Shown here piece after piece: positions 18,911 through 34,770 of a DNA stretch of 34,770 bases. The stretch is taken from positions 1 through 34,770 of IMG/VR virus record IMGVR_UViG_3300002230_000025. The stretch is one strand, 5' to 3'. The position numbers were made by a program, and so were the translations under genes. The first letter of the stretch is position 1. Every line of letters begins with the position of its first letter. This DNA comes from a virus. Below the pieces are notes generated by a model. The model saw only the letters and a program-made list of their open reading frames with translations. It was not told the DNA's origin and made no database searches.

Positions 18911-18936
18911 GTAGTCTAAATTAACTAAAATACTTC

Positions 18937-19063: not shown

Positions 19064-19082
19064 TAGCCCCATAGGAGTTATA

Positions 19083-19490
19083 TTGACTGATAAAAAAGTA
19101 AAGAACCAAGCCTCGAAGAGGATTGGGCGTCCTCCTAAGTCTGAGATTGTCAGCCGCAAGCGGGGAACCGTTGGCTCAGTAGGTCGTCCCAAGGGTGATG
19201 CTGCTATCATCAATGAGTACAAGACTAGGATGCTTACGTCTCCTAAGTCTAAGAAGGTCTTAGAGTCTATCTTTGATGCTGCTCTGGATGATGAGCATAA
19301 GAATCAGGCTGCTGCTTGGAAGCTAGTGATGGATAGGGTCTTACCTACCAGCTACTTCGAAAAGGATGCCGCAGGCGGTAACAAGGGTGGCATCAACATA
19401 TCAATCACTGGTGTCGGTGGTGAGAAGACTGTCATCTCAGGTGGCTCAACAGAGCCTGTAGCAGAAGGGGAGTACACCGAAGATGTATGA
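19083..19490 (+). CDS. Probable small terminase subunit, 135 aa
   Basis: Two AT-hook-like Gly-Arg-Pro elements near the N-terminus (RIGRPPKS, VGRPKGD) suggest DNA binding. A helical core follows (YKTRMLTSPKSKKVLESIF, then AAWKLVMDRVLP), and the C-terminus is Gly/Glu-rich. Proteins of this form precede the large terminase in many podoviruses, so it probably recognises the packaging site; direct evidence is limited to position and DNA-binding motifs. The start is TTG at 19083, with AGGAG 5 bases before it; no in-frame ATG is suitably placed. Confidence 0.6.
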   Translation: MTDKKVKNQASKRIGRPPKSEIVSRKRGTVGSVGRPKGDAAIINEYKTRMLTSPKSKKVLESIFDAALDDEHKNQAAAWKLVMDRVLPTSYFEKDAAGGNKGGINISITGVGGEKTVISGGSTEPVAEGEYTEDV

Positions 19491-19857
19491 TATTAACCAA
19501 GACCTAGATTACTTCACCAGAGAAGAGTTTGCCTGTCAGCACACAGGTGAGAATGAAATTAAAGATACATTCCTATTGAAGCTAGACCTGTTAAGAGCAA
19601 GGTGTGGCTTCCCATTTGTTATTACTAGTGGCTATCGTAGCCCCGAACATCCGATTGAATCGAGAAAGGAGAAAGCAGGAACTCATGCCCAAGGCATTGC
19701 AGCAGACATTAAAGTTAGTACGGCACAACAGAGGTACACGTTGGTTGAGGAAGCTATCAAGATGGGATTTGGAGGCATTGGAATACACAGTGTGTTCGTC
19801 CATATTGATATGCGCAGTGTTGACGGTAATTCTAAACCTGTAATGTGGTTATATTGA
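19483..19857 (+). CDS. Peptidase M15-type endolysin, 124 aa
   Basis: A zinc peptidase that cuts peptidoglycan cross-peptides. SGYRSPEH, GTHAQGIAADI (His68, Asp75) and FVHIDM (His107, Asp109) give the zinc-binding His-Asp-His set of the M15A/DUF882-type peptidases. No signal peptide or membrane segment is present, so release would need a holin (candidates at 29374 and 29577). It overlaps the small terminase gene by 8 bases and directly abuts the large terminase start, an unusual place for a lysis gene. Confidence 0.88.
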   Translation: MYDINQDLDYFTREEFACQHTGENEIKDTFLLKLDLLRARCGFPFVITSGYRSPEHPIESRKEKAGTHAQGIAADIKVSTAQQRYTLVEEAIKMGFGGIGIHSVFVHIDMRSVDGNSKPVMWLY

Positions 19858-21111
19858 GTGACTGACTTAAAAGTTGAGCTACTGCCTTGGCAACAAGAGG
19901 TCTGGAATGACCCCTGTCGCTTCCAAGTAATAGCTGCTGGTAGACGTACAGGTAAGTCTCGTCTCGCTGCGTGGAAGTTAATCATTGAAGGTTTGACTAC
20001 TACTAAGGGTCATGTTTTCTATGTAGCTCCTACACAGGGTCAGGCTAGAGACATTATGTGGCAGACGTTACTGGAAGTAGGTAACCCTGTCATTACCTCT
20101 AGCCACGTAAACAACCTACAGATTAAGCTAATCAACGGTGCTACCATCGCACTCAAGGGCGCTGACAGACCAGAGACCATGCGTGGTGTCAGCCTTAAGT
20201 TCTTGGTCATGGATGAGTACGCCGACATGAAGCCGGAGGTCTGGGAGCAAATCCTAAGACCTGCCCTAGCTGACCAGAAGGGTTCAGCGATGTTCATAGG
20301 CACGCCTATGGGCCGTAACCACTTCTTTGACCTACATCAGTACTCTGTGCTGGCTAAGGATGATGACTGGAGTGGTTGGCACTTTACTAGTTACGATAAT
20401 CCGTTACTAGACGAAGAAGAGATTAACAAAGCTCAGAAGTCGATGTCAGCCTTCTCCTTCCGACAGGAGTTCATGGCGTCCTTTGAGGCAGCAGGTGGTG
20501 AACTCTTTAAGGAAGAGTTCGTAAAGTTCTCAGAGGAAGAGCCTGAAGATGGTAATTATTACATTGCTGTCGATTTGGCAGGATTTGCAGATGTACAGAA
20601 AGCTACAACTAAAACTAATCGTCTTGACCAAACGGCTATCGCTGTGGTTAAAGCAGGCACTGAGGGTTGGTGGGTTGCTAATATCATACATGGCCGTTGG
20701 GGCGTCGAAGAGACTGCCAGACGAATCTTTGAAGCAGTCAGAGACTACAAACCAATCTCAGTAGGTATTGAGAAAGGTGCGTTAAAGAACGCTGTGTATC
20801 CTTACTTGAATGATATAATGAAGAAGAACCAGCGGTTCTTTAGAGTAGAAGAGCTTTCACACGGTAATCAGAGAAAGATAGACAGAGTTGTCTGGGCATT
20901 ACAAGGACGCTTTGAGCACGGTAACATCACACTAAACAAGGGTGAGTGGAACACACAGTTCTTAGATGAACTATTCCAGTTCCCCAATAAGCTTGTTCAC
21001 GATGACTTGATAGATGCCTTGGCTTACATAGACCAGCTCGCTAAGGTGGCTTACGCTATTGACTTCGAAGAAGAAGAATACGAATTCATGGACACATACT
21101 CAGGGTACTAA
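19858..21111 (+). CDS. terL: Terminase large subunit
   Basis: The packaging motor ATPase and nuclease. Walker A AAGRRTGKS (Lys33), Walker B FLVMDEYAD (Asp119, Glu120) and coupling motif IGTP (148-150) mark the ATPase. The RNase H-like nuclease has YIAVDLAG (Asp239), VGIEKG (Glu305) and VHDDLIDALAY (Asp382, Asp386). At 417 residues it is compact. Start is GTG at 19858, immediately after the endolysin TGA, so translation is probably coupled. The portal gene starts 2 bases after its stop. Confidence 0.95.
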   Translation: MTDLKVELLPWQQEVWNDPCRFQVIAAGRRTGKSRLAAWKLIIEGLTTTKGHVFYVAPTQGQARDIMWQTLLEVGNPVITSSHVNNLQIKLINGATIALKGADRPETMRGVSLKFLVMDEYADMKPEVWEQILRPALADQKGSAMFIGTPMGRNHFFDLHQYSVLAKDDDWSGWHFTSYDNPLLDEEEINKAQKSMSAFSFRQEFMASFEAAGGELFKEEFVKFSEEEPEDGNYYIAVDLAGFADVQKATTKTNRLDQTAIAVVKAGTEGWWVANIIHGRWGVEETARRIFEAVRDYKPISVGIEKGALKNAVYPYLNDIMKKNQRFFRVEELSHGNQRKIDRVVWALQGRFEHGNITLNKGEWNTQFLDELFQFPNKLVHDDLIDALAYIDQLAKVAYAIDFEEEEYEFMDTYSGY

Positions 21112-21113
21112 CT

Positions 21114-23141
21114 ATGTTAGAAGAAAACGAACCATTTCACATCGAACAAACGCTTGAAGACTGGGTTGGTGAGAAGTGTAGTAACTGGCGAGACCACTTT
21201 GAAGCTAACTACTCACAACGCTTCGATGAGTACTATCGTCTCTGGCGTGGACAGTGGGCTGCTGAAGATAAGACTCGTCAGTCAGAACGCTCTAAGATTA
21301 TCTCTCCTGCCCTACAACAGGCTGTAGAGTCATCTGTAGCAGAACTAGAAGAAGCTACCTTCGGACGTGGTAAGTGGTTCGACATTAAAGACGATGTAAT
21401 GGATAAAGACAACAAAGACATCGTTATGTTGCGTACACACTTAGAGTCTGACTTTAAGCGCAACAAAGTACGTAAGGGTGTCGCTGAGTGTCTTATTAAC
21501 GCCGCCGTCTTTGGTACTGGTATCGCTGAGATTGAACTAACAACTGAAAAAGAGTTTAAACCAGCTACACAGCCCCTAATGGACGGTGAATTGACCGCTA
21601 TTGGTGTCAACATTACTGACCGTACATGTATCAAACTACGCCCTGTAATGCCTCAGAACTTCCTTATTGACCCCGTTGCTACCTCTATTGAGGATGCTTT
21701 AGGTGTTGCTGTTGATGAATACATCTCTATGCACGTTGTTGAGCAGCTACAGGAGCAGGGTGTCTACCGTGATGTGGCTTTAGAGTCAGCATCTAATGAT
21801 TTTGACATTGAACCAGACCACTCTATTACTTCTCTGTACGAAGAAGACAAGATTCGCTTGACTAAGTACTACGGTTTAGTACCTCGACACCTGTTAGAGC
21901 AGGCTCAGCAAGAAACTGACGCTGAAGAGGAGTCTGTGTCTCTTACTGGAGAGGAAGAAGACACTAGCTACTACGTTGAGGCTATTGTTGTAGTAGGTAA
22001 TGACGGTATTTTGTTAAAAGCTGAAGCTAACCCCTACATGATGGGTGATAGACCTATCATTGCATTCCCTTGGGATGTCGTTCCTAGCCAGTTCTGGGGT
22101 CGAGGAGTATGTGAGAAAGGGTATAACTCCCAAAAGGCGTTAGACGCAGAACTACGCGCTAGAATCGATGCTCTTGCATTGACTGTACACCCTATGATGG
22201 CTATGGATGCCTCTCGTATGCCTAGAGGTGCTAAACCAGAGATACGTGCTGGTAAAGTTATCTTGACAAACGGTAACCCTGCTGAGATTCTACAGCCCTT
22301 TAACTTTGGTCAGGTCAGTCAGATTACCTTTGCACAGGCAAGTGAGCTACAACGCATGGTACAGACCGCTACAGGCGCTATAGACAGTGCTGGTACGTCA
22401 GGGTCTATTAATGGCGATGCGACCGCTGCGGGAATCTCTATGAGCTTAGGAGCCATCATTAAGCGTCACAAGCGCACATTGATTAACTTCCAAGAATCAT
22501 TCATCATTCCTTTCGTCACCAAAGCTGCTCACCGCTACATGCAGTTTGAGCCTGAGATGTACCCAGTTGCTGACTATAAGTTTGATGTGTCAAGCTCTTT
22601 AGGTATTATTGCTCGTGAGTATGAGGTTACACAGCTCGTACAGTTACTACAAACTATGTCACCAGATACTCCGATGTACCCTGAGTTGATTAAGTCTATT
22701 GTTGACAACATGAACTTAGCTAATCGCGAAGAGCTTATTGCTAAGCTTGATGCAGCTAACCAGCCTAACCCACAGGCTCAGCAAGCACAACAAGCTACAC
22801 AACAAGCTGCCTTGGCCTTCCAAGCGTCACAGACTGGAGCACTCAACGGACAGGCTAAAGAGTCTGAAGCTCGAGCACTTAAAGCAGTGGCTGAAGCACA
22901 GGCTATTCCACAAGAGACAGAGATTGCTCGTATTAAGGCTGTAACGACTAACCTACAGGCTGGAGATGCAGACGACAAAGAGTTTGAGAAGCGCCTTAAA
23001 ATCTCTACACAGCTCCTTAAAGAAAGAGAAGTGGCTGTTAAAGAAGGTGCTGTACAGGCACAACCACAACCTGAGCCGCAACCAGTAGCTCAACCACCCA
23101 TGATGATGCAGGAACCCACACAAGGGCAATTCCCACAATGA
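21114..23141 (+). CDS. Portal (head-tail connector) protein, 675 aa
   Basis: Forms the dodecameric channel for DNA at one capsid vertex. Identified by position after terL, size, and features common to podovirus portals: an N-terminal Trp/Tyr-rich region (YYRLWRGQW), an FGRGKWFDIKD segment, DRPIIAFPWDVVPSQFWGRG near residue 305, and an Ala/Gln-rich coiled-coil C-terminal barrel region with a Pro/Gln/Met-rich tail. Its TGA overlaps the start of the next small gene. Confidence 0.88.
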   Translation: MLEENEPFHIEQTLEDWVGEKCSNWRDHFEANYSQRFDEYYRLWRGQWAAEDKTRQSERSKIISPALQQAVESSVAELEEATFGRGKWFDIKDDVMDKDNKDIVMLRTHLESDFKRNKVRKGVAECLINAAVFGTGIAEIELTTEKEFKPATQPLMDGELTAIGVNITDRTCIKLRPVMPQNFLIDPVATSIEDALGVAVDEYISMHVVEQLQEQGVYRDVALESASNDFDIEPDHSITSLYEEDKIRLTKYYGLVPRHLLEQAQQETDAEEESVSLTGEEEDTSYYVEAIVVVGNDGILLKAEANPYMMGDRPIIAFPWDVVPSQFWGRGVCEKGYNSQKALDAELRARIDALALTVHPMMAMDASRMPRGAKPEIRAGKVILTNGNPAEILQPFNFGQVSQITFAQASELQRMVQTATGAIDSAGTSGSINGDATAAGISMSLGAIIKRHKRTLINFQESFIIPFVTKAAHRYMQFEPEMYPVADYKFDVSSSLGIIAREYEVTQLVQLLQTMSPDTPMYPELIKSIVDNMNLANREELIAKLDAANQPNPQAQQAQQATQQAALAFQASQTGALNGQAKESEARALKAVAEAQAIPQETEIARIKAVTTNLQAGDADDKEFEKRLKISTQLLKEREVAVKEGAVQAQPQPEPQPVAQPPMMMQEPTQGQFPQ

Positions 23142-23296
23142 TTATTACACAAAGAGAGTTTAATGACGCGCTAGAGCAAATTAACAGAGCGTTTGCAGTA
23201 GTTGACGAAAAGGTTGACAAACTAGAAGCAGAGGTTAAAGCCTTAACAAAGGAGAAAGCCAATGGCAACGCCAAGAAAGGGCAAAGCAAAAGTTAA
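23138..23296 (+). CDS. Small coiled-coil protein, 52 aa
   Basis: Starts MIITQREFNDALEQINRAF and continues as a heptad-patterned helix (VDKLEAEVKALTKE) with a basic tail. Its ATG overlaps the portal stop (ATGA), and it overlaps the next gene by 35 bases. No homologue recognised; perhaps a minor capsid or assembly factor. Support comes from coupling to the portal gene and good amphipathic periodicity. Confidence 0.6.
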   Translation: MIITQREFNDALEQINRAFAVVDEKVDKLEAEVKALTKEKANGNAKKGQSKS

Positions 23297-23519
23297 GGTA
23301 ACAGCCAGTGGTAAGAAGGTTAGCTACGGTCAGGCTGGTAAAGCAAAGGATGGAGGTTCCCGTGTAAAAGCGGGGACGGCTAAGGGAGACAGCTACTGCG
23401 CTAGGAGCTTAGGTATTAAGAAAGGCTTACCCAAAGCTAAACAGAATGACCCTAACACCCCCAACAACCTCTCACGTAAGCGTTGGAAGTGTTCTGGGGC
23501 TAAATCGAGGAAAAAGTAA
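23262..23519 (+). CDS. Basic phage protein, 85 aa
   Basis: Highly Lys/Gly/Ser-rich, starting MATPRKGKAKVKVTASGKKV, with SYGQAGKAKDGGSR, a SYCARSLGIKKG motif and RKRWKCSGAKS at the end. Similar small basic proteins lie next to portal genes in many marine podoviruses as I recall; function is not known, and DNA binding in the head is plausible. AGGAG precedes the ATG. Confidence 0.75.
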   Translation: MATPRKGKAKVKVTASGKKVSYGQAGKAKDGGSRVKAGTAKGDSYCARSLGIKKGLPKAKQNDPNTPNNLSRKRWKCSGAKSRKK

Positions 23520-23623
23520 TGGCATGTTCAGTGTGTGATGGTAAAAAAAAGAAGACACCTAAAAGCAACAAGATGCCCATCAGAGGGCAACGAGCAATTA
23601 AAAACAAGGCTAAGAAGAAATAG
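23519..23623 (+). CDS. Tiny basic protein, 34 aa
   Basis: Starts MACSVCDGKKKKTPKSNK and ends Lys-Lys-Lys; it has one CxxC pair. The ATG shares a base with the TAA of the previous gene (TAATG), strong support for translation. A promoter begins four bases after its stop. Function unknown. Confidence 0.65.
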   Translation: MACSVCDGKKKKTPKSNKMPIRGQRAIKNKAKKK

Positions 23624-23626
23624 TTC

Positions 23627-23655
23627 TTGACTTTTAGACTAAACTGTGCTATAAT
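23627..23655 (+). promoter_or_regulatory. Sigma70-type promoter for the scaffold/capsid genes
   Basis: TTGACT (23627-23632), 17-bp spacer, TATAAT (23650-23655). It lies in the 98-bp gap before the gene at 23722 and probably boosts synthesis of scaffold and major capsid protein. The spacer shares the word GACTAAA with the promoter at 29546. Confidence 0.9.
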
Positions 23656-23721
23656 GTACTATAGTATTCTTTAAGTTGATACTTTACTTCTTAACAAAAC
23701 TGTCCTAAAGGGATAAACAGT

Positions 23722-23979
23722 ATGATAGACAAAGAATTAGAACGGTACTACGAAAGTATGTACTCGTTGTTTCATAATGAGGGCTGGAAGTCTTTACTAA
23801 GTGATTTAAAAGAAAACACTGTAAGTATAAACTCAGTAGAGCACACCACAGACCTAAACGACCTACAGTTTCGCAAGGGTCAGTTGTCTATTATAGCTAG
23901 TCTACTTAACTTAGAAGAACAGATTAGAGCAGCCGAAGAACAAGCATTAGAGGAAGACCTTGATGCGTATAATGGCTGA
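23722..23979 (+). CDS. Hypothetical helical protein, 85 aa
   Basis: Starts MIDKELERYYESMYSLFHNE and ends in an acidic, Ala/Glu-rich helix. Small proteins of this size with a QLSIIASLLNLEEQIRAAEE-like end are common just before capsid genes in podoviruses; no function known. AAAGGG lies 10 bases before the ATG. First gene after the 23627 promoter. Confidence 0.7.
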   Translation: MIDKELERYYESMYSLFHNEGWKSLLSDLKENTVSINSVEHTTDLNDLQFRKGQLSIIASLLNLEEQIRAAEEQALEEDLDAYNG

Positions 23980-24196
23980 TTTTCAGTGTCCTGACGGACA
24001 TGTCAATGAGTTTTTTGTTGATAACGAAGTAAAGCAGGTTGAGTGTACGGATTGTAGTCTTCCTGCTTATAAACTTATTTCCCCCGTTCGCAATAAGATT
24101 GACCCCATTTCTGGTAATAACGTAGGTGCTACGATGAAGTGGATGAAGATGCGCGAACAAAAACTGAAGCAAGAGCGTAAGGCCAACTCTGCGTAA
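23963..24196 (+). CDS. Zinc-ribbon protein, 77 aa
   Basis: Residues about 4-36 carry CPDGH followed by CTDC, a zinc-ribbon of the FmdB-like kind, then a basic helical tail (MKWMKMREQKLKQERKANS). ATG at 23963 is chosen because GAGG lies 9 bases upstream; ATG at 23972 (MADFQC) is also possible. It overlaps the end of the preceding gene. Role unknown; could bind nucleic acid or serve as a late regulator. Confidence 0.7.
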   Translation: MRIMADFQCPDGHVNEFFVDNEVKQVECTDCSLPAYKLISPVRNKIDPISGNNVGATMKWMKMREQKLKQERKANSA

Positions 24197-24253
24197 GCAG
24201 AAGCTTTACTTAACTAAAACCTCCACAATGATAATATATCACGGAGTTTAATA

Positions 24254-25057
24254 ATGGCAACACTGATAGACGAGCGTCCAGAAGACGTCAACCCAGACGA
24301 AGAAATTACCACCTTTGAACAAGAAGAAGAACAGGAAGCTCCGCAAGAGTTAAACCCTGAACCTCCTCAAGAAGAAGAAATCCCCGAGAAGTACCAAGGA
24401 AAGTCAACCGCTGAAATTGTAAGGATGCACCAAGAAGCTGAGAAGCTACTAGGCAGACAAAGCGGAGAAGTAGGGGAGCTACGTTCTGTTGTTGATAGTT
24501 ATATCCAGACACAACTCGACACCAAAGCACCACCAGCACCAACTGAAGACCCTGATGAAGATGTAGATTTTTTCTCAGACCCAGACAAGGCTGTCGCAAG
24601 AGCAATTGCTAATCATCCTTCTATTAAACAAGCTGAACAGGCCAATGTAGATAACAAGCGTAATACCGCGAGGACACAACTGCAAGAACGTCATCCCGAT
24701 ATGCCGCAGATTCTACAGGACGCTAAGTTTGTTGAGTGGATTAAAGGCTCTAAGATTAGAACACAGCTTTTTGCCCAAGCAGACCGTGGTTATGATTACG
24801 ATGCCGCTGATGAACTCCTTTCTAATTGGAAAGAACGTCAAGGTGTTGTTTCTCAGACCTTAGCTGCTGAAAAAGATGGACGTAAGGCTGCTATTAAGAC
24901 AGCTTCTACAGGAAGTACAAAGGGCAACGGACAACCACAGTCTAGGAAGATTTACAGACGCTCAGACATTATTAAACTAATGCAGGACGACCCAGAACGG
25001 TACTTAGCTTTGTCAGATGAAATTGGCCTAGCTTACGCCGAGAAGAGAGTTCGCTAA
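24254..25057 (+). CDS. Capsid scaffolding protein, 267 aa
   Basis: An acidic, Glu/Pro/Gln-rich, largely helical protein immediately upstream of the major capsid gene, the standard scaffold position. The N-terminal third is strongly acidic (FEQEEEQEAPQEL). The middle has coiled-coil character (STAEIVRMHQEAEKLLGRQ). The C-terminus is basic (KIYRRSDIIKLMQ, YAEKRVR), which would bind the capsid protein. It guides procapsid assembly and leaves before maturation (family knowledge). Confidence 0.88.
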   Translation: MATLIDERPEDVNPDEEITTFEQEEEQEAPQELNPEPPQEEEIPEKYQGKSTAEIVRMHQEAEKLLGRQSGEVGELRSVVDSYIQTQLDTKAPPAPTEDPDEDVDFFSDPDKAVARAIANHPSIKQAEQANVDNKRNTARTQLQERHPDMPQILQDAKFVEWIKGSKIRTQLFAQADRGYDYDAADELLSNWKERQGVVSQTLAAEKDGRKAAIKTASTGSTKGNGQPQSRKIYRRSDIIKLMQDDPERYLALSDEIGLAYAEKRVR

Positions 25058-25088
25058 CTTAACTATTATCATTTAAAGGTATTATCTC

Positions 25089-26048
25089 ATGGCTACATCA
25101 GTATATCCCGCACAAGGCGGCGCAGTAGACAACACTAGCGCAGCAAAGTTTATCCCAGAAATCTGGAGTGACGAAGTTGTCGCTGCCTATAAATCTAACC
25201 TCGTCATTGCCAACCTCGTTAAGAAGATGGGTATGTCAGGTAAGAAAGGCGACACCATTCACGTACCTAAGCCTATCCGTGGCTCAGCAACCGCTAAAGC
25301 CGCTAACACAGCCGTAACCATTCAGAACAGCACTGAAGAAGAAGTCTTGATTGCAATTGACAAGCACTTTGAATTCTCCCGTCTTATCGAAGACATTACC
25401 GAAGTTCAAGCACTTGCTTCTCTCCGTCAGTTTTACACTGGTGATGCAGGTTATGGTCTAGCTAAGCAGATTGATAGTGATTTGTTCCAGTTGGGCAAGA
25501 GGTTTGGTGATGACAACGGTTCTGGTTCTGACTGGGTTCACAGCAACACTTACAACTTCTCTGGCTCTGCTGGTATCGAGACTTACGCTGCTGACGCTGT
25601 AGCTGCTGGTGACGTATTTAACGATGCTGGTTTCCGAGCTGCTATCCAGAAGCTGGATGACGCAGACGTTCCTATGGACGGTCGTTCTTTCGTAGTTCCT
25701 CCTTCCATCCGTAACGCTATCATGGGCGTTGACCGCTACATGTCTTCTGACTTCGTAGATGGTCGTGGTGTCAAGAACGGTCAGATTGGTAACTTGTACG
25801 GCATTGACGTATACACTACTTCTAACTGTCCTGTACTTGAAACTGCCTCTGAGAACAGCGCTGGCGGTATTGTTAAAGGTGCAATGTTGTTCCACAAGGA
25901 TGCTATGGTTCTTGCTGAGCAACAAGCTGTACGTTCACAGACTCAGTACAAGCAGGAGTTCTTGGGAACTCTCTACACTGCTGATTGTCTGTACGGTACT
26001 CAGGTACTACGTCCAGAAGCAGGTATCGTTCTAGCTGTAAACGGCTAA
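25089..26048 (+). CDS. Major capsid protein, 319 aa
   Basis: HK97-fold-type capsid protein by position and sequence pattern. FIPEIWSDEVVAAYKSNLVI and VKKMGMSGKKGDTIHVPKP are typical of podovirus capsid N-terminal regions. The middle holds a spine-helix-like region with IDSDLF, and the C-terminus ends LRPEAGIVLAV. It follows the scaffold gene by 31 bases and is followed 17 bases later by a strong intrinsic terminator, so it probably yields a discrete abundant message. AAAGG lies 11 bases before the ATG. Confidence 0.93.
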   Translation: MATSVYPAQGGAVDNTSAAKFIPEIWSDEVVAAYKSNLVIANLVKKMGMSGKKGDTIHVPKPIRGSATAKAANTAVTIQNSTEEEVLIAIDKHFEFSRLIEDITEVQALASLRQFYTGDAGYGLAKQIDSDLFQLGKRFGDDNGSGSDWVHSNTYNFSGSAGIETYAADAVAAGDVFNDAGFRAAIQKLDDADVPMDGRSFVVPPSIRNAIMGVDRYMSSDFVDGRGVKNGQIGNLYGIDVYTTSNCPVLETASENSAGGIVKGAMLFHKDAMVLAEQQAVRSQTQYKQEFLGTLYTADCLYGTQVLRPEAGIVLAVNG

Positions 26049-26065
26049 GCGATAAGCAACAAACT

Positions 26066-26100
26066 AGGGGGTTCTTCGGAATCCCCTTTTCTTTTTCTGT
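26066..26100 (+). terminator. Rho-independent terminator after the capsid gene
   Basis: A 9-bp stem (AGGGGGTTC / GAATCCCCT, one G-T pair) closed by a very stable C(UUCG)G tetraloop (loop at 26075-26078), followed by TTTTCTTTTTCTGTTTTT. Partial read-through must supply the downstream tail genes unless another promoter exists. Confidence 0.95.
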
Positions 26101-26116
26101 TTTTGTAGGAGTTAAG

Positions 26117-27733
26117 ATGTCGATATATAGAGGTGAGGGTGGTTCAGGTGACGCTACCAATGACGCTACAATAAGTGATGCTACAGCTCAAGCGGTCATA
26201 GCTTCTACAAAAGCAGGTGAAGCAGCAGCAAGTGCAACAGCAGCAGCAGCCTCTGCAACGAGTGTACAGACCCTCACAGCAGCAACAGGAGCCGCTGGAA
26301 GCTCTGCGTCTTACAACGCTGGCACTAACACCCTAACTGTGCCAAGAGGCGACACAGGGGCAACAGGTTCTACTGGTGCTAAAGGAGATACTGGTGCTCA
26401 AGGTGCTCAAGGTGCTCAAGGTGCTCAAGGTAATACTGGTGCTGCCGGAGCCGATGGTACAGGGGCTACTACGTCTTCTGTAACAGCCGCTGGTGCTTTA
26501 ATGGACAGCGAAGTAACTAACCTTGCACAGGTTAAAGCTTTTGCCGCTTCTGACTATGCTACAGCAGCACAGGGAACTTTAGCTGCTGCGGCGCTCCCTA
26601 AGTCAGGCGGCGCTATGACTGGCGCTATCACTACCAACAGCACCTTTGACGGCGTAGATATTGCTACACGAGATGGCGTTTTAACCAGCACTACAACTAC
26701 TGCCAATGCTGCGCTTCCCAAGTCTGGTGGTGCTATGACGGGTGCAATTACTACTAACAGCACTTTCGATGGCGTGGACATTGCTACACGCGATGGTGTG
26801 TTGACTACTACTACTAACACCGCTAATGCCGCTTTACCTAAAGCTGGTGGAGCAATGACAGGCGCTATTACAACTAACAGCACCTTTGATGGCCGTGATG
26901 TAGCTACTGACGGCACTAAACTAGATGGTATAGAAGCTAGTGCAGACGTTACGGACACAACTAATGTAGTGGCTTCTTTAACCGCAGGCTCTAACATTAC
27001 TATTGCTGCTGACGGAACAATTGCAAGCACGGCATCTGGTGGTGGCGGTGAAACTTTAGCCCAGACCCTAGCACTTGGCAATACTACAGGCGGCACAGAC
27101 TTAGTAGTTTCTACGGGAGATAGTATTACTCTTCCTGACGGAGCGAAGATTAAGCTTGGTGACGAGCCAAACCTAGAAATTTCCCACAGCGGTACACATT
27201 CTATTATTGAGGACGTAGGTGGTGGCAGTTTATTTATTAAAGGCGGCCCACAACTTAAACTATTTAATGATACTGAAAGTGCTGTTCTTTGTCAGAAGGA
27301 CGCTGGTGTAACGTTATATCACAACAACATAGCTAAGGTTGTAACAACTGCAACAGGTTTAAGTGTTACTGGTACAACAGTTACTGACGCTATTACTATT
27401 GCAGGCGCTATTACAGAAGATGCTGTAACGCTTACCGGAACCTCTACAACTATTGACCTAGCTACCGCTACTAACTTTGTGCATGACCTCACAGGCGCTA
27501 CTACTTACACGTTTAGCAACCCAGCAGCCACAGGCAACGCCTCTAGTTTCACGCTCAAAATTATTCAAGACGCAACAGCCCGAACGATTACTTGGCCTGC
27601 TACCGTTAGGTGGGCAGAAGGAACTGCGCCAACGCTTTCCACGGCCAATAACGCAGTAGATGTGTTTACGTTTTATACTATTGATGGTGGTTCTAACTAC
27701 TACGGCTTTACGGCTGGACAGGCGATGGCATAA
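26117..27733 (+). CDS. Collagen-like tail fibre protein, 538 aa
   Basis: An Ala/Thr-rich N-terminus is followed by a collagen-like Gly-x-y region (about residues 78-116, with four GAQ triplets). From about residue 159 come three 40-residue fibre repeats of the ALPKSGGAMTGAITTNSTFD type. A LEISHSGTHS / VTLYHNNIAK region follows, shared with the second fibre at 34461. The C-terminal domain is probably beta-structured (YTFSNPAATGNASSF). ATG at 26117 with AGGAG is chosen; the open frame extends upstream into the capsid gene and terminator, so earlier starts are excluded. Trimeric adhesive fibre is inferred; lying right after the capsid gene is unusual. Confidence 0.82.
   Translation: MSIYRGEGGSGDATNDATISDATAQAVIASTKAGEAAASATAAAASATSVQTLTAATGAAGSSASYNAGTNTLTVPRGDTGATGSTGAKGDTGAQGAQGAQGAQGNTGAAGADGTGATTSSVTAAGALMDSEVTNLAQVKAFAASDYATAAQGTLAAAALPKSGGAMTGAITTNSTFDGVDIATRDGVLTSTTTTANAALPKSGGAMTGAITTNSTFDGVDIATRDGVLTTTTNTANAALPKAGGAMTGAITTNSTFDGRDVATDGTKLDGIEASADVTDTTNVVASLTAGSNITIAADGTIASTASGGGGETLAQTLALGNTTGGTDLVVSTGDSITLPDGAKIKLGDEPNLEISHSGTHSIIEDVGGGSLFIKGGPQLKLFNDTESAVLCQKDAGVTLYHNNIAKVVTTATGLSVTGTTVTDAITIAGAITEDAVTLTGTSTTIDLATATNFVHDLTGATTYTFSNPAATGNASSFTLKIIQDATARTITWPATVRWAEGTAPTLSTANNAVDVFTFYTIDGGSNYYGFTAGQAMA
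26393..26428 (+). repeat. Four tandem 9-bp units coding Gly-Ala-Gln
   Basis: GGTGCTCAA is repeated four times without change inside the collagen-like region. Perfect short repeats of this type change copy number easily, altering fibre length. Confidence 0.95.
26591..26910 (+). repeat. 120-bp tandem repeats (three units, last one shortened)
   Basis: Units begin at 26591, 26711 and 26831 and encode the 40-residue fibre repeat. The third diverges after GRDVATDGTKLDG. Synonymous differences between units indicate an older duplication than the 9-bp array. Confidence 0.9.
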
Positions 27734-28239
27734 TGAGTACAGTTGCTAATAAACTTCAAAAAGCTACAAGTACTGCTGGCCCTGTTTCTGGAATAACTGC
27801 TCGCTATATTCGGCTCACTGGGTTTACAAGGTCGGTATCTTCTGGCCCCTTCATTTCACAGTTTGCCTTGTATACAGATGCAAATTTAACAAACTTAATT
27901 ATTGGTCAAGACCATTTTCCACCACCCACAACACAGCTTACTGCCAGCTACGAGTTTAGTAGTTTTCCAGCTTTTAATGCGGGGCAATCTGCTCCTTATA
28001 CAGGTTGGCATCTTGCTAATCGCAGTACGTCAGTTATTATAAACGACTGGATTCAGTACGACATGGGTTCGCCTATTACAATAGGAAGCGTTTTAGTAAG
28101 AAACGGATATTATACGGTTACTTCTAACTATTGGGCTACTGGTTTTAATGTTGAGCATTCTAATGATGGAACTAACTGGACGTTAATACAAGCTGTGACT
28201 AACACCTCCGGCCCAACTGTTAACACTATTAATACTTAA
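27733..28239 (+). CDS. Discoidin (F5/8 type C)-like protein, 168 aa
   Basis: ARYIRLTGF, ISQFALYTD, INDWIQYDMGSPITIGSVLV, YWATGFNVEHSNDGTNWTLI and an aromatic-rich middle follow the strand pattern of discoidin carbohydrate-binding domains, in which a jellyroll binds sugars at one end. The ATG shares a base with the stop of the collagen-like fibre gene (TAATG), so the two are probably made together. A receptor-binding tip or decoration protein is inferred. Confidence 0.72.
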   Translation: MSTVANKLQKATSTAGPVSGITARYIRLTGFTRSVSSGPFISQFALYTDANLTNLIIGQDHFPPPTTQLTASYEFSSFPAFNAGQSAPYTGWHLANRSTSVIINDWIQYDMGSPITIGSVLVRNGYYTVTSNYWATGFNVEHSNDGTNWTLIQAVTNTSGPTVNTINT

Positions 28240-28255
28240 CTTTAAGGGAACAAAA

Positions 28256-28708
28256 ATGTATATTAAAACCCTAAATGACGCTATAGATGTTTTCCCTTAT
28301 AGTGCTGTAGCCTTAAAAAAAGACAACCCTTTAACTTCTTTTCCTCAAAAAATTACTAATGAGACGCTTGCTGAGTGGGGTGTTTACTATGTTGTAAGAG
28401 CTGAAGTGCCTCCTTCAGTGGGCTTTAACGAAAAAGTTGTACCTCTAAGCACGCCTACTCTCGAACAGGGTATGTGGACGTTGGGTTGGGAAGTTGTAGA
28501 TAAAACAACCGAAGATATTGAAACAGAGGGAGCAGGTGCTAGGTTAGAACGCGATGAGCTACTGACCCAATGTGACTGGACGCAGCTTCCTGACTCGCCG
28601 TTAGACAGCACTACAAAAGCTTCTTGGGCTGCTTACCGAACAGAGCTAAGAGACGTAACTGAACAGTCTGGTTTTCCTACAGACATTACTTGGCCTACAG
28701 CGCCTTAA
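28256..28708 (+). CDS. Tail assembly chaperone-like protein, 150 aa
   Basis: The C-terminal half (RDELLTQCDWTQLPDSPLDS, then WAAYRTELRDVTEQSGFP and DITWPTAP) matches the conserved motif of phage tail-assembly chaperones (Phage_tail_APC type). The N-terminal half resembles the DAIDVFPYS...LKKDNP start of such proteins. It probably assists folding of the fibre encoded just upstream. Ribosome binding site AAGGGA lies 7 bases before the ATG. Confidence 0.82.
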   Translation: MYIKTLNDAIDVFPYSAVALKKDNPLTSFPQKITNETLAEWGVYYVVRAEVPPSVGFNEKVVPLSTPTLEQGMWTLGWEVVDKTTEDIETEGAGARLERDELLTQCDWTQLPDSPLDSTTKASWAAYRTELRDVTEQSGFPTDITWPTAP

Positions 28709-28728
28709 CTATACTTGGAGTAACAACA

Positions 28729-28932
28729 ATGAAATATTTATTAGTAGTAGCAGCATTCGCGTTGACAGCCTGTAATACCTTTAATGCCGCAGTAGACGGC
28801 TCACAGATGATTGTAGACAGTACTGTTGATTCCGCGCAGGCTATGGTTACAGACACAGCTAAGGGCGTTGGAGCAGGCTCTGCTACGTTTGTTGACGGTA
28901 TTGCCGCTGACATACGTAAAGCGTCTGAGTAG
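28729..28932 (+). CDS. Small predicted lipoprotein, 67 aa
   Basis: The N-terminal signal peptide MKYLLVVAAFALTACNTF has a clear lipobox (LTAC), so Cys15 would be lipidated after cleavage. The rest is Ala/Asp/Val-rich with no known domain, resembling entericidin-like lipoproteins. GGAG precedes the ATG. It heads a cassette of membrane-associated genes (28729-29954) that contains the holin candidates, so a role in lysis (outer spanin-like) or superinfection exclusion is possible; both are guesses. Confidence 0.75.
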   Translation: MKYLLVVAAFALTACNTFNAAVDGSQMIVDSTVDSAQAMVTDTAKGVGAGSATFVDGIAADIRKASE

Positions 28933-29361
28933 ATGTTAGCCGAGATTGCTGCCGCTAACGCAGCTTTTAAGGTTATCAAGACAGCACTTAGTAACGGGAA
29001 GGAATTATATGATTGTTCAGGCGCAGCTAAGCAATACTTCGACAATAAGAGTGTTATAGCAAAACGTGTAGCATCCAAGGGCAAAAGTGACTTGGATGCT
29101 TTCATGGCTCTGGAGAAGATTAAAGAGCAGGAAGAGTGGCTGAAGGATTATATGGTATACGCAGGCCGCGCTGAGATGTATGGTGACTGGCTACAGTTTC
29201 AAAGTGAGTGTAAAAGAGAAAGAGAACAAGCAGCTCGTTTAGCTGTTTTAAAAAGACACCACACAATTAAGATGTTAAAAAACTTTATAACTATTATTGG
29301 CGTAGCAGTAGCAATCATACCTATTATGATATACGCCATAATTTACTCACTCAGCAAATAG
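28933..29361 (+). CDS. C-terminally anchored membrane protein, 142 aa
   Basis: Helical, charged residues 1-112, followed by one hydrophobic segment (about 115-138, FITIIGVAVAIIPIMIYAII). The ATG directly follows the lipoprotein stop. Membrane anchor plus long helical domain resembles an inner spanin in outline, but with the anchor at the opposite end. Function uncertain; known spanin sequence features were not recognised. Confidence 0.65.
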   Translation: MLAEIAAANAAFKVIKTALSNGKELYDCSGAAKQYFDNKSVIAKRVASKGKSDLDAFMALEKIKEQEEWLKDYMVYAGRAEMYGDWLQFQSECKREREQAARLAVLKRHHTIKMLKNFITIIGVAVAIIPIMIYAIIYSLSK

Positions 29362-29373
29362 CAAGGGAATGAC

Positions 29374-29562
29374 ATGGTAGAAGACACGAAAGAGATGTTA
29401 GACGTAGCTGCTGCTTCTACTGCGGTACTTTCAATGGCTGCTTGGTTACCGCCAACAGCTTCTATTTTGACAATCATCTGGTTAGGTATTAGGATATTTG
29501 AGTCTAATACTGTACAAAGTATAGTTAATGGAACAAAAAAAACTCTTGACAAGCAAGACTAA
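29374..29562 (+). CDS. Holin-like small membrane protein, 62 aa
   Basis: A short acidic N-terminus, a hydrophobic region of one long or two short helices (about residues 15-43, LSMAAWLPPTASILTIIWLG) and a basic C-terminal tail (GTKKTLDK). Proteins of this size and layout are frequent holin candidates in marine podoviruses. AAGGGA lies 8 bases before the ATG. Confidence 0.6.
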   Translation: MVEDTKEMLDVAAASTAVLSMAAWLPPTASILTIIWLGIRIFESNTVQSIVNGTKKTLDKQD

Positions 29563-29574
29563 ATGGTGTATAAT
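29546..29574 (+). promoter_or_regulatory. Sigma70-type promoter overlapping the next start codon
   Basis: TTGACA (29546-29551), 17-bp spacer, TATAAT (29569-29574): a full consensus match. The -10 box ends 2 bases before the ATG at 29577, so a transcript started here would begin inside the first codons and could not use that ATG. Just downstream is GTATACTAAG, half of the 21-bp motif. Confidence 0.8.
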
Positions 29575-29576
29575 AC

Positions 29577-29954
29577 ATGAGTATACTAAGTAGCTTAATA
29601 GGGCCAATTGCTGGTTTAGCTAAAAACTATCTAAATAACAAAGCAGAAGAAAAGCAAGCTAAGCATCAAGCTAAGATGTCAGTAATAGCAAACGATGCTG
29701 ACTGGGAATCTAAGATGGCTGAGGCTTCTAAGGATTCATGGAAAGATGAGTTCTGGACAATAGTCTTAGCTGTTCCTATCTTCATGGTAGGTTACGCTAT
29801 AGCTGCTAACGACATAACTGTTATAGATAGAGTAGCTGCTGCGTTTGTAGCACTAGAGGAGCTTCCTGAGTGGTATCAATACTTGTTGTTTATTGCTATA
29901 AGTTCTAGCTTTGGTATTCGTGGAGTTAGTAAAATAATGGATATGAGGAAGTAG
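29577..29954 (+). CDS. Holin candidate (GTA_holin_3TM-like), 125 aa
   Basis: WKDEFWTIVLAVPIFMVGYA begins a first transmembrane segment (about 58-80), and YQYLLFIAISSSFGIRG (about 99-116) resembles the end of the GTA-type three-span holin family. A charged helical N-terminus (KAEEKQAKHQAKM) precedes. It could form the lesion that lets the M15 endolysin out. The ATG at 29577 must be read from upstream transcripts; Met34 could serve a transcript from the 29546 promoter. Confidence 0.7.
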   Translation: MSILSSLIGPIAGLAKNYLNNKAEEKQAKHQAKMSVIANDADWESKMAEASKDSWKDEFWTIVLAVPIFMVGYAIAANDITVIDRVAAAFVALEELPEWYQYLLFIAISSSFGIRGVSKIMDMRK

Positions 29955-29958
29955 ACTA

Positions 29959-32211
29959 ATGGCATTAGATGATATAACAAAAAGCCCAGCGCCTTATCAA
30001 ACCTTAGTGCTTCCTCAAGACACACAGGAAGAAGAAGAAGTTGTCTCCCTTGCTAGTGGCTTTGATAACGAAGTAGACCCCTTTGCAATTGAACAGCCTG
30101 TAGCCCCTGTAGCCCCTGTAGCCCCTGTAGAACCTGTAGAACTAGACTCTTCTCTCTACGGTGAACAAGCGCGTCCTTTTGTAGACACAGTAGCAATGAA
30201 CGAACGACTAGCAGCCGAAGACCCAGCAGCGATAATGGCGCGCATCAACGCCTCTCTGGGATACGACTTAGGCAGTACTGACACCATTGTTCCCAACTTA
30301 GACCCTGCAAAGATAACTGCTTACGCAATGGACGTACAACGCCCAAAACTTTTACAGGATATTAACTTATCTCGCGATTCTTTTACTGACGAAGAGTTTA
30401 CAGACAACACTAAATTTTGGGACATTTATACCCCCAAAGAAGCAGAGTTTAAGCAAGGCCAACGAGACGCTCTAACAGATTTGTATTCAACAGACATCGA
30501 ACAGTTTTCTAAAGTATATGATAATCTTGATATTAACTCTCAGCTTAACTTTGTAGAAGGACAATACTCACAGGGAACTATAGACAAGACTACGTATCTT
30601 GAGCAAGCCGCTGGTCTTCTTTATGCAGACGATGCTAGACGAAGCGCCCCCGGCGCAGAGCCATCCAAGAACTACTTTATTAAAGAAGACATTCTTTATG
30701 AAGTTCCTTCTACGTTTGCGGATGACCCTAGCGGTTTCTACGCTAGAGAAGTTATCTTGTTTGATGACCAAAAGTTAAGCGGTACTAGCAACGACTCACG
30801 GTTAAACGAAGAACAGCTCTTTAAACGTGCAATAGGTCAGACTAACTACGATAGTGCAGACTCTGAGTCTAAGTGGGTGGCTGCTCGTGATAATATTTTA
30901 AAGCCTATGGCCAGAATAGGTTTAGCAATAGCCACGGGGAGTTCGTCAGAGCAACTTATTTCTGCTATTAAATTGGTTTCTGGTGAGACACTACACGCTT
31001 CAGACTATGCGTCTTTAGCTCTGGGTGGCATGGAGATGGCTAACATAATAAAGGCACCTGTAGACGCGGCTACGGCAGCGCAGGCTGGTACAGACGCAAT
31101 GAATGCAGTTAATGTCGCGGGCACTGGTAATGCTATAGCCGCAGGAAACGCCGCTCAAGCAGCAGCATCCGCAGGAACAGGTGTCTTAGGTCTTGGTTAT
31201 AATGCATCAAAAGCTTTAATAACAGGGGTAGTTACAGGAGACCCTGTAGAAGCTATTGCTCTTGCTTATGGGCCTGCGATTGTTAAAAAAGCCGTAGGTA
31301 AGCTTGGTGTTGGGGATGCCTTAAACACTTGGGCAAGTGATAATAATATAAACGCTGACGACTTGAACGCGGGAATTAGTAAGACTATAAAATCTCTTGC
31401 TAAAGGCGATGATATAGAAGACGCTCTGCTAAAAGGTGTAGGTAAATACATAACGGAAGGAGGAACTATTCTTCCCGATGCTGTTGAGGATGCTTTGAAA
31501 ACAGCAGGTAAGCAAGTAGCTGATTTAGTATCACCAGTTACAGACGTTTTATCTGTACTTAACAAGAACCTCATTAAACCAGTTGCTTCAGAAGTAGGGG
31601 ATGTTCTCTCAGCCGTAGATACCGAAACTAGAGGCTTGTTGTCAGCAGTAGACGATAAAGTGCTACAGCCTCTTACGCGTCCTGTTGGAGATGTCCTATC
31701 AACGGCAGACACAGCAGCTAGAGAAGGTTTATCAGCTTTTGACGATGCAGTACTTAACCCTGTTGGAGACGTAGTTGAGGACGTAGGTCAAGCAGTAGGA
31801 GACGTAGCTGAGGACGTAGGTCAAGCGGTAGGAGACGCGCTGTCAGAAGCTGAAACAGCAGTTAGACAGATTATTGGAGATATAGACTTACCAGACTCAG
31901 ACTTACCTGATATAGACTTGCCTGATATAGACTTACCTGATATAGACTTACCTGATATAGACTTACCTGATATAGACTTAAACATACCACAGGTAACTAG
32001 TGCTCCGTCTCCTACTCGTACTACAGGTGGTTTATTTGACGTATCTCAGTTTGAACATGAGGAGGGTATTAGTTTAGTAGGTAACCTGCTTACAGGTCTT
32101 ACAGAACAAGACGCTAAGAAGTTAAGTAAAAAACAATACCAAGAACCCAAAGAAGAAATGGTAGACATACTGTCAGACCCCTTTGCTAATATTTTTAACT
32201 ACAAGGTATAA
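29959..32211 (+). CDS. Large repeat-rich virion protein, 750 aa
   Basis: No catalytic domain recognised. Features in order: an acidic N-terminus with VAP/VEP triplet repeats (about residues 46-61); a long helical region; an Ala/Gly-rich and hydrophobic middle (about 360-440); a repetitive segment of units like PVGDVLSAVDT...GLSAVDD (about 515-615); then seven DIDLP-type pentapeptides (641-675) and a basic/acidic tail. The late position before the tail tubular genes suggests a structural or ejection protein, possibly membrane-active; inferred. The start is 4 bases after the holin candidate stop, with GAGGAAG as ribosome binding site. Confidence 0.6.
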   Translation: MALDDITKSPAPYQTLVLPQDTQEEEEVVSLASGFDNEVDPFAIEQPVAPVAPVAPVEPVELDSSLYGEQARPFVDTVAMNERLAAEDPAAIMARINASLGYDLGSTDTIVPNLDPAKITAYAMDVQRPKLLQDINLSRDSFTDEEFTDNTKFWDIYTPKEAEFKQGQRDALTDLYSTDIEQFSKVYDNLDINSQLNFVEGQYSQGTIDKTTYLEQAAGLLYADDARRSAPGAEPSKNYFIKEDILYEVPSTFADDPSGFYAREVILFDDQKLSGTSNDSRLNEEQLFKRAIGQTNYDSADSESKWVAARDNILKPMARIGLAIATGSSSEQLISAIKLVSGETLHASDYASLALGGMEMANIIKAPVDAATAAQAGTDAMNAVNVAGTGNAIAAGNAAQAAASAGTGVLGLGYNASKALITGVVTGDPVEAIALAYGPAIVKKAVGKLGVGDALNTWASDNNINADDLNAGISKTIKSLAKGDDIEDALLKGVGKYITEGGTILPDAVEDALKTAGKQVADLVSPVTDVLSVLNKNLIKPVASEVGDVLSAVDTETRGLLSAVDDKVLQPLTRPVGDVLSTADTAAREGLSAFDDAVLNPVGDVVEDVGQAVGDVAEDVGQAVGDALSEAETAVRQIIGDIDLPDSDLPDIDLPDIDLPDIDLPDIDLPDIDLNIPQVTSAPSPTRTTGGLFDVSQFEHEEGISLVGNLLTGLTEQDAKKLSKKQYQEPKEEMVDILSDPFANIFNYKV
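31879..31983 (+). repeat. Seven tandem 15-bp units coding Asp-Ile-Asp-Leu-Pro
   Basis: Units of the form GATATAGACTTACCT; the middle four are nearly identical, the second reads DSDLP and the last DIDLN. Short near-identical repeats suggest recent slippage and a rod-like or linker segment. Confidence 0.95.
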
Positions 32212-32217
32212 AATTCA

Positions 32218-32865
32218 ATGACATACTTAGAAGCTGTAAACAGAGTTCTTATACGCTTGAGAGAAGAAGAGGTGACTACGGTTAACCAGAACCCTTACTC
32301 TAAGCTTATAGGAACTTTTGTAAATGACGCTAAACGTATGGTGGAGGATGCTTGGGATTGGTCTTCGTTAAGAACCACTATTACAGTCACTACACAAGCT
32401 GACGTTTTTTCTTACAACTTAATTGGAGCTAACTCTTCTTTTAAAACCTTGAACGTGTTGAATGACACTAAAAACTGTTTTATGGAGCATATTCCTGCTT
32501 TTGAAATGAGTAACCAATACCTTATTCAGCCTGTTGTAGAAGGGTCTCCTACTCAGTACACTTGGAACGGCTTTACTGCCGAAGGCAACGCTATTGTAGA
32601 TGTCTACCCTAAGCCTAACTCTGTAGAGTACTTACGCTTTAACCTTGTTCAACGTAGAGATGAATACACTAACGATTCTGATGTGTTCTACGTACCTACT
32701 CAGGCTGTTATTCAGCTTGCACAGGGCTTTGCAATGGAAGAGAGAGGAGAGACAGGCGGCCAGTCAAGCGGAGCCATGATACAGTTAGGACGTTCTACGT
32801 TGGCTGACGCTATCGCCTTTGATGTTGCAAGGTTTCCTACTGAGTTAATCTGGAGGGATGTGTAA
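32218..32865 (+). CDS. Tail tubular protein A-like (adaptor), 215 aa
   Basis: Resembles T7 gp11-type head-tail adaptors: an N-terminal helix starting YLEAVNRVLIRL, FVNDAKRMVEDAWDWSSLR (the DAxxEV-DWxxLR pattern near residue 40-55), a central beta region with AIVDVYPKP, and a C-terminal helix. It joins the portal to the tail tube. Its stop overlaps the start of the tubular B-like gene by one base. Confidence 0.85.
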   Translation: MTYLEAVNRVLIRLREEEVTTVNQNPYSKLIGTFVNDAKRMVEDAWDWSSLRTTITVTTQADVFSYNLIGANSSFKTLNVLNDTKNCFMEHIPAFEMSNQYLIQPVVEGSPTQYTWNGFTAEGNAIVDVYPKPNSVEYLRFNLVQRRDEYTNDSDVFYVPTQAVIQLAQGFAMEERGETGGQSSGAMIQLGRSTLADAIAFDVARFPTELIWRDV

Positions 32866-34460
32866 TGGCTCAACAGCTACAGAATCTTGCAATCTCTGCT
32901 CCTGCTTTTGCAGGTCTTAACACTGAAGACTCTCCTGTGTCTTTAAGCGCAGCTTTTGCTGATGTTGCAGAGAACTGTGTAATTGACCAAAGAGGCCGTA
33001 TTGGAGCTAGGAAAGGCTGGAGTGCTGTTGCTGGTAACGGAGCAGCAGTCTTAGGTACTAGTGCAGGTATTGAGCACATACAAGAGTTTATTGCGTATGA
33101 CGGAACAGTAACTGTTTTCTCTATGGGCAACCTAAAGATATACAGAGGAACTTCAACTCTTGTTGAGATAGCCTTTCCGACGAGTTACTCTTGTAGTGCT
33201 AATAAATGGAAGACTGCTTCTTTTGATAACAATGTTTACTTCTTTCAGGCTGGACATGCTCCTCTCAAGTACGTAGCTGGAGCCTCTGCTTTAGTGCTCG
33301 TCCCTGACTCTGGAAGCACCGCTCCTCCACAAGGAGACGAAGTACTGGCTGGCTTTGGTCGTCTATGGGTTACATCTGTTGCAAACCAAGACTACAAGAT
33401 TTATGGTAGTGCTCTCCTTGATGGAGACACTTGGCATGGCTCAGGTAACTCGTGGTTAACTTTAGATTTAACTAACGTCTGGCCACAAGGGTATGACTCT
33501 GTAGTTGCACTCGCTGAACACAACGGATACTTAGTTGTCTTTGGTAAGCGTTCTATTATCTTATATCAAGACGTTGTAGGAGCACAGGGCGGGGATTTAA
33601 CTGCTACCACTGCTGACACAATTAGACTGTACGACACCATTGAAGGTGTTGGTTGTATTGCTAGAGATTCTGTACAGTCAACTGGTAATGACTTGCTGTT
33701 CTTATCTAATCGAGGCGTGATGTCTCTTGGTCGTCTTATACAAGAAAAAGCTATTCCACTTAATGATATTAGTAAGAATGTACGCACAGACCTTATGGAG
33801 CTTGTTGCCTTTGAATTTGCTGCGGGTGACGGTAAAGCAATTAAAAGTGCTTACAGTGCTAAACATGCGTTCTATATATTAACACTTCCAGAATCAGACG
33901 TTGTTTATTGTTTTGATGTGCGCAGACCCTTAGAGGATGGTTCTTTTAGAGCTACTACTTGGAGAGGTTTAACACCTTTAGCCTTGTCAGTGTTTGCTGA
34001 CGATGAGCTAATGATGGGCTTAGCTAAAGACGGCTCTGCTCAACCAGCCTTAGTAAAGTATGGTACATATAACGATGGGGATGCGTCTTACGACATGAAG
34101 TACTTTAGTCACCCTCAAAACTTTGGTAACCCTACTAACTTAAAATTCCTTAAAAAGATGAATGTTACCATTATTGGAGGGGCAGGCGCAAACGCTATAC
34201 TTAACTGGGGGTACGATTACTCCAATAACTTCACTAAACAAGCTATTACCTTAGCGGCATCAACGGATGACGCAGAGTTTAATGAAGCAGAGTTCAACAC
34301 CACAGCAGAGTACACAGGAGGCACCACTGTTAATGAACCTTCTCTAAATACTTCAGGCTCTGGTGTAGAAGTAACTGTAGGTCTTGAATCAACAATTAAC
34401 GGCACTGCTTTTTCTATTCAAAAAATTGACATACACGCTCTATTGGGGAGATTTATCTAA
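32865..34460 (+). CDS. Tail tubular protein B-like (tail nozzle), 531 aa
   Basis: Starts MAQQLQNLAISAPAFAGLN, with SAAFADVAENCVIDQRGRIG and ARKGWSA following, the usual opening of podovirus tail tubular B/stabilisation proteins. The rest is a beta-rich, probably propeller-like region with NGYLVVFGKRSIILY and LLFLSNRGVMSLGR, then a second beta domain. It is shorter than T7 gp12 (794 aa). The fibre gene starts directly after its TAA. Confidence 0.85.
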   Translation: MAQQLQNLAISAPAFAGLNTEDSPVSLSAAFADVAENCVIDQRGRIGARKGWSAVAGNGAAVLGTSAGIEHIQEFIAYDGTVTVFSMGNLKIYRGTSTLVEIAFPTSYSCSANKWKTASFDNNVYFFQAGHAPLKYVAGASALVLVPDSGSTAPPQGDEVLAGFGRLWVTSVANQDYKIYGSALLDGDTWHGSGNSWLTLDLTNVWPQGYDSVVALAEHNGYLVVFGKRSIILYQDVVGAQGGDLTATTADTIRLYDTIEGVGCIARDSVQSTGNDLLFLSNRGVMSLGRLIQEKAIPLNDISKNVRTDLMELVAFEFAAGDGKAIKSAYSAKHAFYILTLPESDVVYCFDVRRPLEDGSFRATTWRGLTPLALSVFADDELMMGLAKDGSAQPALVKYGTYNDGDASYDMKYFSHPQNFGNPTNLKFLKKMNVTIIGGAGANAILNWGYDYSNNFTKQAITLAASTDDAEFNEAEFNTTAEYTGGTTVNEPSLNTSGSGVEVTVGLESTINGTAFSIQKIDIHALLGRFI

Positions 34461-34770
34461 ATGACTGCATATAACGTAACCACTAATTTTGGTTCTAAAG
34501 ACGACCTAGCGTCAGGAAATACCGCTAAAAAAATTAAAGGCTCAGAGTTCACTACTGAGTTTAATAACATTGCTACAGGAGTAAACAGTAAGGCCGACAC
34601 GACTACTGTAAACACTACTACAGCAACAGCTAACGCTGCTCTTCCTAAAGCTGGTGGAACCATGTCGGGTGCAATAGCAATGGGAACCTCCAAGATTACT
34701 GGAGCAGGAAACCCAACTGATGCTCAGGACGTAGCTACAAAAGCTTACGTTGACACTAGCTCTGGCGCTG
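34461..34770 (+). CDS. Tail fibre-like protein, N-terminal part (continues at base 3)
   Basis: The ATG directly follows the TAA of the tail tubular B-like gene (34458-34460). The window cuts the gene after about 103 codons, and the rest is found at 3-689 because the ends repeat. The N-terminus (MTAYNVTTNFGSKDDLASGN) probably docks the fibre to the tail, by analogy with podovirus fibres; this is inference. It is followed by a fibre repeat of the ALPKAGGTMSGAI type. Confidence 0.75.
   Translation, partial: MTAYNVTTNFGSKDDLASGNTAKKIKGSEFTTEFNNIATGVNSKADTTTVNTTTATANAALPKAGGTMSGAIAMGTSKITGAGNPTDAQDVATKAYVDTSSGA
34510..34770. repeat. Terminal direct repeat, right copy
   Basis: Exact copy of positions 1-261. 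It contains codons 17 onward of the fibre gene that starts at 34461. Joining this copy to the left one restores a continuous reading frame that ends at 689. Confidence 0.95.

Follow-up and report, generated by a model that had tools for sequence, protein, structure and literature searches.

A sigma-70-type consensus promoter abuts the start codon of a holin-candidate gene ahead of a viral tail module

A consensus promoter at the holin-candidate gene

In the 34,770-base stretch of viral DNA analyzed here (the window), the minus strand encodes the replication genes and the plus strand the structural genes. Its ends are identical over 261 nt (a direct terminal repeat, positions 1–261 and 34510–34770), and a window with such ends is a complete genome, circularly assembled or terminally redundant. 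On the plus strand, a 62-aa small membrane-protein-like gene (29374–29562) precedes a 125-aa holin-candidate gene (29577–29954), which is followed by a 750-aa gene weakly matching a tail tape-measure PHROG (29959–32211), an adaptor/tail protein gene (32218–32865; PF24175 SU10_adaptor, phrog_10775), and a 531-aa gene that also belongs to this downstream module (32865–34460). The 750-aa gene contains a tandem 15-nt repeat encoding Asp-Ile-Asp-Leu-Pro units (31879–31998). The 62-aa product matches neither Pfam nor PHROG. The 125-aa protein matches the profile of phrog_2524, a family of unknown function (E 3.6e-37, residues 2–122); no Pfam family matches it at E 0.001, and PF11351 (GTA_holin_3TM) leaves it unmatched up to E 1.

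Between the first two genes, and overlapping the last codons and stop of the 62-aa gene, lies a sigma-70-type promoter sequence on the plus strand (P3, 29546–29574). Its −35 box TTGACA (29546–29551) and −10 box TATAAT (29569–29574) are separated by a 17-nt spacer and match the consensus at 12 of 12 positions; two bases, AC, then lead to the holin-candidate ATG (29577–29579), which has no Shine–Dalgarno sequence. A preliminary description had reported a consensus promoter at this gene start, with the −10 box ending two bases ahead of the ATG, and the sequence bears out both statements. In a promoter scan of 15001–34770, P3 was the sole 12/12 site. Consensus-like matches are common, as a reading of P3 as a chance resemblance would have it: the same region holds 31 looser promoter-like sites, against 30.0 expected. 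For the exact hexamer pair at a spacing of 16–18, however, the dinucleotide content of the whole window predicts 0.018 occurrences, both strands counted.

The two next-best sites of the scan share this strand and precede structural genes. P1 (18937–18965) precedes a terminase/endolysin/portal block, which includes an M15-type peptidase that is the probable endolysin (19483–19857; PF08291, E 9.2e-11), and P2 (23627–23655) precedes a scaffold/capsid block. Each matches 11 of 12 positions and has both a TG-n extended −10 element and an ordinary leader, whereas P3 has neither. An intrinsic terminator (26066–26087, plus strand) directly follows the major capsid gene. We compared the window with seven other capsid-gene-bearing stretches (G004, G006, G020, G021, G024, G025, and G029, of which G021 and G024 look near-identical). 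In all eight, P1 precedes the small terminase gene, P2 precedes the scaffold block, and the terminator follows the capsid gene. P3 is present in six of the eight; G004 and G006 have P1, P2, the terminator, and the tail module without it, and P3 is thus not indispensable.

The preliminary description had also placed a half-copy of a 21-bp motif, not spelled out there and here taken as AGTATACTTAAGTATACT, at the presumed transcription start. The half-copy, AGTATACT, does exist at 29580–29587 (plus strand), and the palindrome AGTATACTTAAGTATACT itself occurs at 19042–19059 and again, with one mismatch, at 14210–14227. Among the matches listed in the searches described below, AGTATACT follows the ATG in 11 of 72 contexts with P3 and in none of 125 others. 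We rejected the half-site as a P3 operator on the 11/72 count, on the position of AGTATACT within Ser-Ile-Leu codons, and because the full palindrome is a feature of the P1 leader. When two mismatches are allowed, five of the nine other records searched (G020, G021, G023, G024, and G029) have AGTATACTTAAGTATACT ∼100 nt beyond P1, and it was not found there in G004, G006, G022, or G025. This P1-leader palindrome is possibly an operator or RNA element.

Conservation of the promoter and exchange of the gene behind it

Relatives were gathered by protein, using the 125-aa product, two diverged homologues, the 62-aa upstream product, and a second gene type. These searches yielded, among the matches listed, 197 distinct contexts, once pattern-anchored loci (L083–L192) and contexts with upstream flanks of <150 nt or downstream flanks of <60 nt were removed. 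A promoter of at least 11/12 sits at the P3 place in 72 of these 197 protein-anchored contexts, and the best promoter score within 400 nt in the remaining 125 is 9.5; because queries L071, L046, and L113 were picked for carrying P3, the 72:125 ratio does not measure how common P3 is. With the upstream 62-aa gene as anchor, P3 is present in 43 of 55 distinct contexts, and the other 12 score ≤8.5. Thus, P3 has the hexamers and spacing (16–18) of a sigma-70 promoter, and its conservation exceeds chance, with bimodal scores over the 197 contexts among the matches listed. A 62-aa homologue precedes P3 in all 72 contexts among the matches listed, and the P3 contexts are therefore kin rather than independent events.

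The geometry of P3 is strikingly uniform. Among the matches listed, the spacer is 17 nt in 72 of 72 P3 contexts, and the gap between −10 box and ATG is 1 nt in four, 2 nt in 64, and 3 nt in four. Clustering the 64 gap-2 windows at 85% identity gives 18 clusters, across which TTGAC, an AAA triplet, a GTG, and the −10 box are (nearly) invariant while the flanks vary. Because 72 contexts among the matches listed, comprising these 18 clusters together with the gap-1 and gap-3 forms, retain P3 at one position, it is not a chance site, and we give the chance reading negligible weight.

The constant gap might instead reflect plain compaction: a tail promoter landed at a gene junction, and its distance from the ATG was inherited without function. 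Consistent with this, P3 in the window extends over the final codons of the preceding gene, one backbone is common to all 72 P3 contexts among the matches listed, and holin types are also swapped at the P3 junction (see below). However, the distance from upstream stop to ATG ranges from 12 to 74 nt, with nine different values, and the gap is still 1–3 in the 72 contexts among the matches listed. In 12 of the 72, 28 to 74 nt separate the upstream stop from the ATG, and P3 abuts the ATG despite the intergenic room. The gap also remains 1–3 in variants that differ in spacer and −35 box. We consider compaction rather unlikely. In two relatives (L455:405–500 and L400), the 62-aa gene and P3 are separated by a 59-nt intergenic stretch containing an inverted repeat (about ACATAAAAGTGTA/TACACTTTATGT); this stretch folds no better than shuffled sequences.

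Two gene types occur behind P3: type A, that of the window (phrog_2524), and type B, whose members belong to PF11351 (E 3.1e-16 for the L113 protein). The two are alignable by hhalign over ∼31 N-terminal residues only (87.6 probability, E 3.5e-6), and PF11351 is thus alike to the window protein over that part alone while being the alternative occupant of the locus. The shared N terminus (29577–29670) marks the place of holin-type exchange. The window and relative L351 have the upstream gene, the promoter, and ∼10 codons in common and diverge thereafter. The presence of either type behind P3, along with this divergence, indicates that P3 stays while the lysis gene is swapped. From this exchange with PF11351 members and from its hydrophobic segments, the A-family gene is probably a holin.

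P3 is linked to what lies downstream. Among the matches listed, in contexts with enough flank, tail genes follow in 52 of 62 cases with P3 and in 8 of 113 without (Fisher p 1e-25, uncorrected for kinship); the other 10 of the 62 P3 contexts have no recognised tail gene within the flank searched. By type, tail-module genes are present with P3 in 18/20 contexts of type A and 34/42 of type B, versus 8/75 and 0/38 without P3 (matches listed). As the association appears in both types, P3 goes with the tail module and not with a holin family. This link supports the suggestion that the promoter feeds the large gene at 29959. Four promoter-less tail contexts were scanned, and they contain no site of ≥10/12 within 2.5 kb on each side.

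A scan of a viral collection with the P3 pattern returned at least 119 stretches. Of 67 distinct contexts with the core pattern among the loci examined, 64 lead into the holin-candidate gene type, the other three lying outside the family. A query combining P3 with the first codons had 30 matches in a cellular genome collection, none with the holin-candidate gene family. The exact string TTGACN18TATAAT was missing from 14 of 20 records of one set and 3 of 20 of another. Cultured phage records contain no DNA-level relatives of the region beyond two short matches. At the protein level, the portal matched 26 phage records at about 22–23% (among the matches listed), the adaptor none, and the 62-aa product one, partially. 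Phage C72C1 and Roseobacter phage CRP-810, inspected for their holins, have different gene layouts. A promoter held against a holin start is not described in the titles and abstract openings of the open-access literature searched.

Predicted transcript and the missing start signal

Leaderless genes typically have an ATG start, no Shine–Dalgarno sequence, and a fixed −10/ATG distance; lambda PRM, which serves cI, is a leaderless promoter in which the start codon is the RNA 5′ end. P3 resembles PRM/cI in that the promoter is set by the start codon and a Shine–Dalgarno sequence is missing. P3 RNA could, by analogy, be a leaderless holin message that starts exactly at the AUG and is followed by the tail genes. 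Several features fit. Among the matches listed, the holin-type start codon is ATG in 72 of 72 P3 contexts, versus 106 of 125 without P3 (the rest being 18 GTG and 1 TTG). The −10/ATG distance is fixed whatever the upstream sequence. A Shine–Dalgarno triplet precedes the start in 5 of 72 contexts with P3, leaving 67 without one, versus 114 of 125 contexts lacking P3 (matches listed); it is nearly always gone in P3 contexts because the −10 box takes its place. Both this loss and the exclusive use of ATG fit a leaderless message and an RNA that excludes the start codon equally well.

The position of the start codon argues against the leaderless message. According to PMC5730371, bacterial polymerase most often initiates 7 bp past the −10 box, give or take 2 bp. 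By that rule, the predicted P3 start range is 29579–29583 (plus strand), with G29581 as the modal position. The A of the ATG is at position 2, 3, or 4 past the −10 box in 72 of 72 P3 contexts among the matches listed, outside the 5–9 range quoted there, so that P3 RNA should lack a full ATG and should begin at the G of the ATG or later, inside codon 1 or 2. A leaderless gene needs a gap near 6, which occurs in none of the 72 contexts (matches listed); unlike in PRM/cI, the P3 gap is several bases too short for a start codon at the 5′ end. We therefore regard the leaderless message as unlikely. A gap of 0–4 would be the sole placement that avoids both a leaderless AUG and a promoter within the coding sequence.

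In P3-bearing genomes, pN/pS is 0.24 (codons 2–6) and 0.32 (codons 7–33) for type A and 0.37 and 0.17, respectively, for type B; this purifying selection on codons 2–33 indicates production of the long form, with P2 read-through as the presumed source of its RNA. Translational coupling may operate in the 46 of 72 P3 contexts (matches listed) that have the upstream stop 15 nt away. A relay through a mini-ORF (ATG 29563 to a TGA overlapping ATG 29577) was rejected: the GTG that precedes the −10 box tracks that box and not the holin frame. In gap-2 and gap-3 contexts, the place of this GTG is fixed relative to the −10 box, and it thus looks like part of the promoter. RNA folding of three stretches did not beat shuffled sequences in any case (z −0.49, 1.02, and −0.82).

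The preliminary description had offered a second use for the promoter besides feeding the gene at 29959: P3 RNA would be translated from Met34, giving a short inhibitor or effector and a promoter-based switch between two holin forms. An in-frame ATG does lie at 29676–29678 (plus strand) of the 125-aa frame, the frame stays open, and both families have a Met at residue 34 or 35. Lambda S105/S107 is a dual-start holin, and the P3 locus resembles it in having a holin-type gene with possible dose control at its start. To our knowledge, however, where a holin has two forms, as in lambda S, the choice lies between start codons rather than promoters. Alignment of relatives showed Met34 to be conserved, but this conservation is not tied to P3: among the matches listed, the aligned Met is found in 22/22 proteins with P3 and 78/82 without in the window's family, and the second family has it in 45/49 and 42/43, respectively (one B-type P3 protein of <100 aa was excluded, leaving 49 of 50). 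Since the Met is kept with or without the promoter, Met34 does not track it, and other internal Mets are equally conserved. An apparent association by fixed residue number (Met34/35 in 22/22 versus 53/82 and in 44/48 versus 25/43, matches listed) was an offset artefact, gone on alignment. The inner ATG of P3 contexts has no Shine–Dalgarno-like triplet in 21/22 cases in the window's family and 33/45 in the second (matches listed). Thus, no inner start with a ribosome site tied to P3 was found and, in contrast to lambda S105/S107, the locus gives no sign of a second start codon or two products. The proposal that P3 feeds the large gene therefore stands, whereas Met34 is unsupported as a start and the dual-form reading is very improbable.

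Three late promoters and holin dose

P3 resembles phage sigma-70 late/middle promoters, the kind read by host RNA polymerase, in its TTGACA/TATAAT boxes, its 17-nt spacer, its location on the structural-gene strand, and its place at a block boundary. It differs in that the −10 box is 1–3 nt from a start codon and that the first gene's start would be missing from its RNA. Position 29959 is the first start with a Shine–Dalgarno-like sequence on the predicted P3 RNA. We judge it somewhat probable that P3 is the last of three late promoters, transcribing the tail module and excluding the holin start. P1 would serve the terminase, endolysin, and portal genes, and P2 the scaffold and capsid; the post-capsid terminator would stop most P2 RNA, and P3, if active as predicted, would restart transcription for the tail module from 29959 onward. 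Initiating in codon 1 or 2, P3 RNA would yield no full-length holin, which would come solely from the minority of P2 RNA leaking through the terminator, and without a Shine–Dalgarno sequence. Because P3 RNA would be unable to give full-length holin, the tail genes could be strongly expressed without a higher holin dose and early lysis, a low dose being the presumed benefit.

More tentatively, we propose a start-codon-excluding promoter: selection may hold P3 at a distance of 1–3 nt from a toxic lysis gene's ATG, such that RNA made for later genes cannot express it, and this arrangement may have been kept through holin exchange. Strong promoters are expected to express the adjoining gene; P3 adjoins a probable lysis gene that, by geometry, it should skip. 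If true, this would provide a simple gap rule (1–3 nt) for reading phage genomes and a caution against pairing a promoter with the nearest ATG. It would also permit high-level transcription through a holin gene without early lysis and offer a testable account of low holin dose beside highly expressed tail genes in phages without their own polymerase.
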